In this document: one piece after another, positions 3 through 2,796 of the stretch
How the letters are laid out: each line of letters opens with the position of its first letter
Numbering within the stretch: the stretch's first letter is position 1
Origin: Alphaproteobacteria bacterium
GTDB taxonomy: Bacteria; Pseudomonadota; Alphaproteobacteria; Micavibrionales; Micavibrionaceae
Direction: 5' to 3'
Assembly: GCA_023140215.1 (NCBI GenBank)
Contig: JAGLMC010000036.1
Location: forward strand, 1-58,420
Length of the DNA: 58,420 nt
Program-made: the position numbers and the translations under genes
Notes under the pieces: model-generated
Told to the model about the DNA's origin: nothing
Seen by the model: only the letters and a program-made list of their open reading frames with translations
Database searches by the model: none

Positions 3-1358
3 GGTGCCGGATGGGTGACTGTAGGCTCTAGCGCTGGTACGGGAGCTGGTATCTTCGAGATTGATACTAATGTTATCCGCGTTAAGTCATCAGTCGCTAG
101 TTACACAACAGATGACTTCGTAATCGGATCCTCTACATTAGATGACAACGTAGGCACCACAGATGATAACAACCGCATGTTCTTTGATAAATCCAAAGGT
201 GCTTTCCGTGCCGGATCATCGAACGACACAACAAATTGGGATAGCGCTAGTATTGGAGAATATTCTTTTGCAACAGGTCTTCAAACAACCGCCTCCGGTG
301 ATTGGTCCACAGCAATGGGAACCGGCACAACCGCCTCCGGTAACCTTTCTACCGCGTTGGGTAATACAACAACAGCATCTAATAATAACACCACTGCAAT
401 GGGATATTTATCAACCGCCTCCGGCATCAGATCTACTGCAATGGGATATGATACAACCGCTTCCGGTTATGGCTCCACCGCGATAGGATATGAAACAACT
501 GCCTCAGGTACAGCTTCCATTGCGATGGGACGAGAAACAACCGCTTCCGGTATTTCTTCCACCGCGATAGGATATAAAGCAGTTGCAGGTAGTGGCACAG
601 CTGCTGATGGAAATGGTGACGGATCTGTAGCGTTTGGTTTGATTGATAATGCTGTAGTTATTACAACGAAGCCTATGGTTACAGGCATTCAGTCAATGGG
701 CATATTTATGGGCGATCAAGATGGAGTTGATCTTGCAGCTAATAATGTAATGGGGGTATTGGGTGGTTCTGTGATTATTGATCCGAATATCCCAGCAACA
801 CTTCTTTCAACAACTTACGCTCTGGAAGTTGTCGGTGATGCTGCCAAATCAACGGGAACCGCTTGGATAAACTCTTCAGACATACGCCTTAAAGATATCC
901 ATGGCGAGTATGAAAAAGGCCTAGATGAAATCATGACTCTGCGCCCAGTGAAATTTTCATATAAGAAAAACAACCCAAGAAAACATAACAGCGAAAACCA
1001 ACATGTCGGTTTCATCGCTCAGGAAGTCCAAAAAGCTTTCCCTGAAGCTGTAAACAAAAGAGGAGACGGATATCTCGACTTCGATATGCACCCTGTTAGC
1101 GTGGCCATGGTGAGCGCTGTTCAAGACCTTAAGAAAGAAAATGACACCCTTAAGTCTGAATTAGCCACTATGCAAAAAGCACAAACTCAGACACAAACCG
1201 CTCTTAAAGACATAACTGCGCAATTAGTAACACTAAACAAAGCTGCCGGTCAGAATGTAGGAAAAGCATCAATGCTCTCTTATCTGTGGATATTGCTTGC
1301 TCTTCTTGGTGGTTTTGGGTTGTCTATTGTGGTTCAACGCAAATATACTGCTTCTTAA
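3..1358 (+). CDS. YadA-head / S74 chaperone fibre protein with C-terminal membrane anchor (5' partial)
   Basis: The reading frame is open to the left edge, so the real start and any export signal lie outside the window; the first in-window start is GTG at 15 (447 residues from there, used for numbering). Residues 85-188 hold about seven 14-residue repeats of the type TTASGxxSTAMGYx, the YadA/Hep_Hag left-handed beta-roll head seen in trimeric surface fibres. Residues 287-375 are a peptidase S74 intramolecular chaperone domain with the SDIRLK signature, followed by HVGFIAQEVQ and a coiled coil (about 368-412). Residues 420-440 form one hydrophobic segment followed by QRK. S74 domains in phage tail spikes trimerise and cut themselves off; the Ser288/Lys293 spacing of the self-cleaving dyad is kept. 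There is no beta-barrel anchor, so this is not a standard trimeric autotransporter. The family assignment is solid; function is inferred. Confidence 0.85.
   Translation, partial: GAGWVTVGSSAGTGAGIFEIDTNVIRVKSSVASYTTDDFVIGSSTLDDNVGTTDDNNRMFFDKSKGAFRAGSSNDTTNWDSASIGEYSFATGLQTTASGDWSTAMGTGTTASGNLSTALGNTTTASNNNTTAMGYLSTASGIRSTAMGYDTTASGYGSTAIGYETTASGTASIAMGRETTASGISSTAIGYKAVAGSGTAADGNGDGSVAFGLIDNAVVITTKPMVTGIQSMGIFMGDQDGVDLAANNVMGVLGGSVIIDPNIPATLLSTTYALEVVGDAAKSTGTAWINSSDIRLKDIHGEYEKGLDEIMTLRPVKFSYKKNNPRKHNSENQHVGFIAQEVQKAFPEAVNKRGDGYLDFDMHPVSVAMVSAVQDLKKENDTLKSELATMQKAQTQTQTALKDITAQLVTLNKAAGQNVGKASMLSYLWILLALLGGFGLSIVVQRKYTAS
267..578 (+). repeat. Degenerate 42-bp tandem repeats encoding YadA head repeats
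   Basis: About seven and a half in-frame units of 42 bp, recognisable by the recurring accaccgcctccggt-like core, encode 14-residue head repeats of the fibre gene. The units differ at many positions, mostly while keeping the protein motif, so this is an old coding repeat rather than a recent expansion. Confidence 0.85.
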
Positions 1359-1374
1359 GAAATACAGATATTAT

Positions 1375-2796
1375 ATGGAAAAAACTTGCTTCAAAATTTT
1401 GTTACTGATTGTTACTATGCTTTTTCCACTATTAATAGGAGCATGTACGTCTATCCCGCAAGCACAGTTTAAAGAATCATTAAGCATGGCTGAAGATGCT
1501 TGCCCAGCGCCAATATTATTCACAAAACTTAAAATGGAACTTCCGGCAGGCAGCGATGTCGGTACAATCTATAATTTTGGTATGAGTACAAGCTCTTGGT
1601 TTGTAGTACCTGCAAACCGTTATATGCTACAAAAAGCTATTTCAACGAAAGAATTATCTTCAACTTTTAATATGGTTCTGGAAGGACAGGGCTATGATGT
1701 AGTTGATTATCTCGATCCAATCTTCGAGGAAGAAGCTGAAAATGAATATTTACGCACTGAATACCGCATCGGCGGTAAAATTATTGATGCAAAAATGAAT
1801 ATTGACCATGAAGGATACAAACGTTTCGGTGCTGTTATTTATGGAAACAGCGGTAAAAAAGGAGAACTATATCTCAAAATTAAATGGAGTATTTATGATG
1901 CTCTACGCCGCACAACAGTTTATACAACTATTACAGAAGGTACTGGAAAACTTCGTTATGCTGATCCTGAAGGTATGACATTAATGCTAAACAATGCATT
2001 TGAAATGGCAGCTCACAACTTAAGCTCAGATATAGGCTTTTATGATTTATTAGTTAATGGTATAAAACCTGATAATTGGAAAAAACATAAAAAACAAGAT
2101 GACCGTCCACTCAAATATGACTCTCAGGAACAAGTCAACATCGAGCCACAATCATTATCTTCCTCACCACTAACACAGCATATTAATGAAACAAAAAAAG
2201 CTGTTGTTATAGTTCAAGGTGGAGCAGGTCATGGATCAGGTTTTTTCATTACAAAAAACGGACATATTCTAACTAATCAACATGTAGTCGGTAATGCTCA
2301 ACGAGTACGCATTGTAACCGCCAATAAAAAAGAAAAACTGATAGCTCAGGTGTTACGTATAAACCGAGCGCGTGATGTCGCTCTACTTAAACTTGAAGAA
2401 AAAATTGATAACATGAAGATTACAACTCTGCCATTGCGTATAAAATTACCAGCCGTAAGCGAAGATATTTACGCAATAGGTACGCCAAAAGCAACTCGTC
2501 TACAAGATACCTTAACCAAAGGAATTGTAAGTGCACACCGCCCTAAATACCGATTTGCCGGTAGTCGTATGGACTTTATACAAGGCGATATAACGATTCA
2601 TGGCGGTAATAGCGGAGGGCCTCTTCTTGATAAGAACGGTAATATTATCGGTTTAACAGTCAGTGGTTTTGTTTTCGGAGAAGATAGAGCCAATTCTAAT
2701 CTCAATTTATTTATTCCAATCGGTGATGCACTAAAAAAACTTAACATTAACGTAGACACAAATGATAATTCTCCATTAAATATCACATATCAATAA
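1375..2796 (+). CDS. Lipoprotein with trypsin-like (S1C) serine protease domain
   Basis: The chosen ATG at 1375 gives 473 residues and puts a lipoprotein signal at the N-terminus: a hydrophobic stretch and the lipobox LIGAC with Cys24. An upstream start at 1297 in the same frame would run into the preceding gene and spoil the signal. Residues 25-260 are an uncharacterised envelope region. Residues 280-460 are an HtrA/trypsin-like protease fold with all three catalytic residues in context: His303 (TNQHVV), Asp334 (RDVALL) and Ser413 (GNSGGP). No PDZ domain follows, unlike DegP. It starts 16 nt after the fibre gene on the same strand, so the two are probably one transcript and may act together at the cell envelope. 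The substrate is unknown. Confidence 0.85.
   Translation: MEKTCFKILLLIVTMLFPLLIGACTSIPQAQFKESLSMAEDACPAPILFTKLKMELPAGSDVGTIYNFGMSTSSWFVVPANRYMLQKAISTKELSSTFNMVLEGQGYDVVDYLDPIFEEEAENEYLRTEYRIGGKIIDAKMNIDHEGYKRFGAVIYGNSGKKGELYLKIKWSIYDALRRTTVYTTITEGTGKLRYADPEGMTLMLNNAFEMAAHNLSSDIGFYDLLVNGIKPDNWKKHKKQDDRPLKYDSQEQVNIEPQSLSSSPLTQHINETKKAVVIVQGGAGHGSGFFITKNGHILTNQHVVGNAQRVRIVTANKKEKLIAQVLRINRARDVALLKLEEKIDNMKITTLPLRIKLPAVSEDIYAIGTPKATRLQDTLTKGIVSAHRPKYRFAGSRMDFIQGDITIHGGNSGGPLLDKNGNIIGLTVSGFVFGEDRANSNLNLFIPIGDALKKLNINVDTNDNSPLNITYQ

Follow-up and report, generated by a model that had tools for sequence, protein, structure and literature searches.

The fibre gene at the contig edge

The window, by which we mean the whole stretch of 58,420 nucleotides analysed here, is one complete contig (C47) of a 1.71-Mb genome in 116 contigs. 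Its first frame lies on the forward strand. The contig begins inside the gene, so the frame supplies only the last 451 residues, which probably make up no more than the C-terminal third of a giant trimeric surface fibre. The features of this frame, together with the adjoining gene, are:

3-1358, forward strand: end of a giant fibre gene, encoding its C-terminal 451 residues (coding 3-1355, then a stop; the 5′ end is open at the contig edge)
246-602, forward strand: YadA-head-type repeats (STAxG...TTASG), residues 82-200; Pfam PF05658 (YadA_head), E 2.4e-20
603-875, forward strand: fibre segment preceding S74; 19 matches, every one in the organism's own order, best 64% identity
876-1052, forward strand: S74 / intramolecular chaperone autocleavage domain, residues 292-350; PF13884 (Peptidase_S74), E 1.1e-15
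876-893, forward strand: SDIRLK motif with catalytic Ser292 (876-878) and Lys297 (891-893); cleavage is predicted immediately before the serine
1119-1235, forward strand: coiled coil after S74, a continuous helix in the structural model
1236-1277, forward strand: juxtamembrane motif NKAAGQNVGKASML, common to other fibres of the order
1278-1334, forward strand: C-terminal transmembrane helix SYLWILLALLGGFGLSIVV, Kyte-Doolittle score 2.09
1335-1355, forward strand: basic tail QRKYTAS, predicted cytoplasmic, net charge +2
1375-2796, forward strand: the neighbouring gene that follows immediately, for a lipoprotein whose C-terminal part is a trypsin-like serine protease domain (PF13365, E 3.7e-27)

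A sequence-only reading of the window had described YadA-head repeats, S74, a coiled coil and a C-terminal membrane helix in that order. The description stands, but it covers just the C-terminal part of the gene. The Ser288/Lys293 pair that it reported as intact, counted from a GTG at base 15, is confirmed as Ser292/Lys297 of SDIRLK in the open-frame count used here. It had also set the protein apart from trimeric autotransporter adhesins (YadA, BpaC), and we agree. The repeats are alike, matching BpaC with an E value of 2.4e-21, but the frame has no Pfam match to the C-terminal YadA beta-barrel anchor domain; in place of a barrel there are S74, the coiled coil and, at the end, a single inner-membrane-type helix with its basic tail.

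Where is the remainder of the gene? The genome contains one S74 domain, that of the window frame, and one full copy of the N-terminal domain (N-domain) with which full-length relatives begin. This copy is on contig C36, in a 901-residue frame running off the 3′ end of that contig. The C36 and window halves align to opposite ends of the same 2,811-residue gene from the same genus, with 41% and 40% identity, respectively, and the UbiB-like gene upstream of the C36 half also precedes the full-length fibre gene in two relatives (G001 and G023). As there is no overlap between the ends of C36 and C47, we infer rather than observe that both belong to one gene; it is the simplest inference.

Full-length relatives and the pilin-like domain

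Full-length relatives are about 1,000 to 5,700 residues long, with S74 carried in very long frames, and present the order N-terminal helix, pilin-like domain, repeats, S74, C-terminal helix. The genes start with a basic stretch and a membrane helix of the form RGNVFFTLFGAVAxVGxLGA, followed by a domain marked by DPWGxxYGYC...ISAGPDR...SDDI and then by fibre repeats that extend for up to thousands of residues. Each of the 2,811- and 2,749-residue relatives has just two segments at transmembrane level, one near the N-terminus and the other at the C-terminus. This two-ended layout recurs in relatives and seems undescribed, though its parts are already known.

Nearly all carriers have a net positive stretch before the N-terminal helix, and essentially all relatives with the C-terminal helix have a net positive tail after it. 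By the positive-inside rule both ends should then be cytoplasmic, with the fibre and S74 in the periplasm. On this reading of the sequences each end of the fibre is probably held in the inner membrane until S74 frees the tip. The earlier proposal, that the cut frees the head from the membrane, is not supported by the comparison. Full-length relatives, and the sole candidate 5′ half, carry an N-terminal membrane helix and the pilin-like domain, and in proteins with their own N-terminal helix the cut would free the distal tip while the base stayed rooted.

Release in the manner of the myelin regulatory factor MYRF, with the C-terminal helix as sole anchor and the S74 cut shedding the fibre from the membrane, would fit the window frame taken alone, since that displays just the C-terminal helix. 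It could also suit relatives that have an ordinary signal peptide in place of the pilin-like domain, for example a 517-residue protein of G030 (L173, 4921-6471) that combines a Sec-type N-terminus, S74 and a C-terminal helix. We nonetheless consider it unlikely, given that the N-terminal helix also occurs in all 13 complete fibres of the window's own family that have both N-domain and S74, and that the only N-domain of the genome lies, correctly oriented, at the end of a contig.

The N-domain has no match among Pfam, NCBIfam or PDB profiles and lacks the +5 glutamate typical of pilins. Other S74 fibres do begin with true prepilin motifs (GFTLIELS): L257, L258 and L267 within the order, and L062 and L071 elsewhere in the Alphaproteobacteria. 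PF07963 is confirmed in L257, L062, L071 and the same-genus paralogue L267, and is not matched by the main N-domain. Aligned with the prepilin-type S74 fibres in HHalign, the N-domain scores 39.6 (probability 68%) over 136 columns that take in the D-W-G-x-x-Y and S-x-G-x-D elements, against 21.2 or less for 60 column shuffles and 9.4 for an unrelated S74 profile. With GspG alone the figure is 40%, across 15 columns only. An AlphaFold model of the true pilin-headed S74 N-domains had a pLDDT of 43 and was left unused. From these alignments we assign the N-domain, with moderate confidence, as a divergent type IV pilin-like domain. Each of the 38 genomes searched encodes A24 prepilin peptidases. 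Strong N-domain matches in the class sample come without exception from the window's own family, with weaker ones in a few other families.

Several observations touch on this domain. T2SSG (GspG) is absent from 57 of 58 relatives despite the universal prepilin peptidases, one of which, in the genome of the window (L234), adjoins genes that resemble a Tad pilus locus by eye. There are also proteins of about 240-280 residues with a GN(V/M)(L/F)F N-terminal membrane helix (L206:1278-2126, forward; L207:193-924, reverse; L211:2627-3379, reverse). Their helix matches that of the fibre N-domain with E values from 6e-4 to 6e-3 in the genome of the window, and of 3e-6 in G022. The two scanned gave no Pfam function; these small proteins are possibly pilin-like partners. 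N-domain fibres without S74 (L278, L279, L280, L281 and L282) terminate in different modules, which by eye are RCC1-like repeats and a conserved ...LYCFEQ ending, and resemble the non-S74 group of the Bdellovibrio fibres discussed below. In G051 the fibre gene (L210:1219-9778, reverse) is split into two overlapping frames of 472 and 2,391 residues; that of G022 is intact (2,749 residues), and the split is a frameshift or a sequencing error.

The S74 domain and the C-terminal helix

The Ser, Asp, Arg and Lys of the S74 motif are invariant in an alignment of 44 sequences, and the Ser/Lys pair is intact in 58 of the 59 S74 frames of the order, so that loss of the pair among homologues, which would have counted against self-cleavage, is not what we find. 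An AlphaFold model (mean pLDDT 85.7) shows the S74 fold and, after it, a single unbroken helix (model residues 101-188, frame residues approximately 362-449) that takes in the coiled coil and continues into the hydrophobic segment. The best PDB match of the monomer model in Foldseek is the intramolecular chaperone autocleavage (ICA) domain of MYRF (7dc3, three chains, E 2e-5, probability 1.00); 3gw6 and 3gud, both phage chaperones, rank behind it with E values of about 0.2.

MYRF likewise has an S74/ICA domain beside a transmembrane helix and a Ser/Lys dyad, and its cut frees an N-terminal trimer (PMC3742443, PMC8326128). The dyad is required for that cut (PMC8326128). The comparison drawn in the sequence-only reading therefore holds for the fold, but fails for the topology: MYRF is a transcription factor whose ICA domain is cytosolic (PMC3742443), whereas the window S74 should face the periplasm. 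MYRF has a single anchor, so its cut releases the whole N-terminal part. The window frame has no match to a DNA-binding domain (Ndt80-like) as in MYRF, its N-terminal part being a repeat fibre.

The C-terminal helix, residues 426-444 (19 residues), scores 2.09 on the Kyte-Doolittle scale and is the sole region of the frame at transmembrane level. Shuffling the last 60 residues reaches this score in 128 of 10,000 trials, and the recurrence of a predicted helix in about 30 relatives is stronger evidence than the shuffle. It is found in 15 of the 20 complete fibres of the order with N-domain and S74 (including all 13 of those in the window's own family) and in 17 of 38 S74 frames with no N-domain in the same frame, many of which are truncated or of other types. 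None of 13 N-domain frames without S74 has it. The association, 15/20 against 0/13, has a Fisher p of 3e-5, or 2e-4 with split pieces removed (0/10). Outside the order the helix is absent from 64 bacterial and 61 viral S74 proteins, a biased sample in that these controls were gathered by similarity to the window S74.

Most near relatives keep the helix, and the five fibres with N-domain and S74 that lack it all fall outside the window's own family; the helix is thus dispensable for S74 function in some lineages. The findings that the earlier reading had named as refuting it are mostly absent. In one PF07963-bearing S74 fibre from the same genus the C-terminal helix is borderline (Kyte-Doolittle 1.53). 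As far as these sequences go, the helix is lineage-specific. That it accompanies S74, and never occurs on pilin-domain fibres without S74, suggests an anchor that is there to be cut off.

Could the helix instead be a permanent anchor or trimer clamp, with S74 purely a folding chaperone and cleavage scarce or absent? Chaperone function by itself could conserve S74, but conservation here extends to the Ser/Lys pair throughout nearly all S74 frames of the order, and the same dyad cuts in MYRF (PMC8326128) and in Bd3182 of Bdellovibrio, where cleavage is proven and S782 is required (PMC10769870). We give this explanation a small chance. Equally improbable, in our judgement, is that the helix belongs to a tripartite CTERM-type sorting signal cut by a sortase-like enzyme, with S74 chaperoning or cutting independently. 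The combination of helix, basic tail and conserved juxtamembrane motif does resemble tripartite C-terminal signals. Among 24 genomes, however, no rhombosortase exceeds the curated cut-off, the weak matches being generic and found in controls too, and an exosortase occurs in only one; this survey leaves rhombosortase or exosortase processing unsupported. A sorting signal would also be predicted on the pilin-domain fibres without S74, from which the helix is missing.

Tail-fibre profiles in PHROG match the window frame, which raises the question of a phage or prophage tail fibre at the contig end. The genes of the window, however, are chromosomal, and include what we take, by eye from the translations, to be hslV, hslU, mdh, tatC, scpA and scpB. 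The probable 5′ contig carries hydrogenase and UbiB-like genes, and a phage tail module is present on neither contig. Scans of viral contigs returned no N-domain relatives, and the viral S74 controls lack the helix, in keeping with the earlier view that the protein is unlike phage tail spikes. A phage source is very improbable, and we reject it on the chromosomal context and the viral controls.

The flanks of S74 appear to have a different history from the domain itself. The window S74 is 57-58% identical to S74 domains of KSB1, Bdellovibrio and Paceibacterota, none of them with the helix, while its best match within the order is at 43%. The fibre just upstream reaches 64% identity, in the own order only, and the helix-bearing tail is 51% identical to that of the same genus, with 18 of its 19 matches in the own order. 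An S74 of this kind between flanks of the own order suggests that the cutting unit was exchanged and the anchor kept; these identities mark the C-terminal anchor as a candidate conserved module.

Anchoring, release and known systems

The explanation we prefer, and hold to be somewhat probable, is that of a pilin-headed giant fibre anchored at both ends, in which S74 would cut before Ser292 to free the tip. The N-terminal helix would insert the full protein into the inner membrane, with the divergent pilin-like domain next, and the long repeat shaft would be threaded into the periplasm until the chain ended in S74, the coiled coil, the second membrane helix and the basic cytoplasmic tail. At this doubly anchored stage the C-terminal coiled coil and helix would hold three chains together, allowing S74 to register and fold the shaft. 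In a correct trimer the Ser/Lys pair would then cut just before Ser292, leaving the C-terminal piece in the membrane and the tip free; the segment at 603-875 is expected to become the new tip. The fibre, held by its pilin-like base, would be presented outside, possibly at the tip of a filament resembling a type IV pilus.

A more tentative extension, to which we give rather less than an even chance, treats S74 as a folding check. Only correctly folded fibres would lose the anchor and be extruded by a type IV filament machine, with tips and cutters swappable between lineages and the anchor kept.

The mosaic adhesive trimeric (MAT) S74 fibres of Bdellovibrio bacteriovorus, such as Bd3182 (PMC10769870), are cellular and comparable in several respects. 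They have repeats ending in S74 with SDxxxK, S74 and non-S74 subgroups, a long repeat shaft with S74 or an alternative tip, and variable tips on a constant N-terminal domain; the lineage of the window also appears to include a predator. The MAT fibres differ in having a signal peptide and a beta-rich N-domain of about 130 residues (PMC10769870), where the fibres of this order have a transmembrane helix and the pilin-like domain. No membrane helix is described after S74 in the MAT fibres, whereas those of the order have this second helix and reach 5,700 residues. Our N-domain HMM finds no match in Bdellovibrio and Bacteriovorax S74 proteins, and the MAT N-domain is set apart by its description. 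By analogy, from the fibre type and the MAT precedent, the fibre is probably a prey- or surface-binding adhesin.

Fusion of a pilin to S74 (IPR012902-IPR030392) is among the common architectures in a 2021 survey of modular type IV pilins (PMC8179133). These resemble the fibres of the order in the pilin-type N-terminus fused to S74, and PF07963 fibres with S74 occur in the same order. The survey takes S74 as a peptidase function and does not describe a C-terminal anchor (PMC8179133). The window's family differs further, its N-domain being too divergent for PF07963. The trimeric minor pilins CofB and TcpB are much shorter than the giant fibres and, to our knowledge, have neither S74 nor a C-terminal helix. 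They are alike in having a pilin-like base and a trimeric C-terminal region at the filament tip (PMC9565799, PMC8179133). We found no description of a bacterial membrane helix after S74 in the open-licence literature; what is new is a pilin-headed fibre whose C-terminal anchor could be severed.

S74 fibres are known from phages, Bdellovibrio and, by annotation, modular pilins. The wider question is how very long trimeric fibres are folded and released through a Gram-negative envelope. A C-terminal anchor that is found on S74 fibres and, in this sample, never on pilin-domain fibres without S74 gives S74 self-cleavage a concrete, testable cellular role, and would give MYRF a counterpart in bacteria. 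Should the lineage be Micavibrio-like, the fibres would be candidates for prey recognition by epibiotic predators.

The neighbouring genes vary. The gene for the trypsin-like lipoprotein does not adjoin the fibre gene in G001. In several relatives the fibre gene is directly adjoined by genes for secreted proteins that start CxxPxGxxGxIxY...YCDxTNWI (L212:7680-8255, reverse; L208:1567-5528, reverse; L181:10150 onward, forward; L173:4921-6471, forward), and the last of these, from G030, combines S74 with a C-terminal helix of its own.
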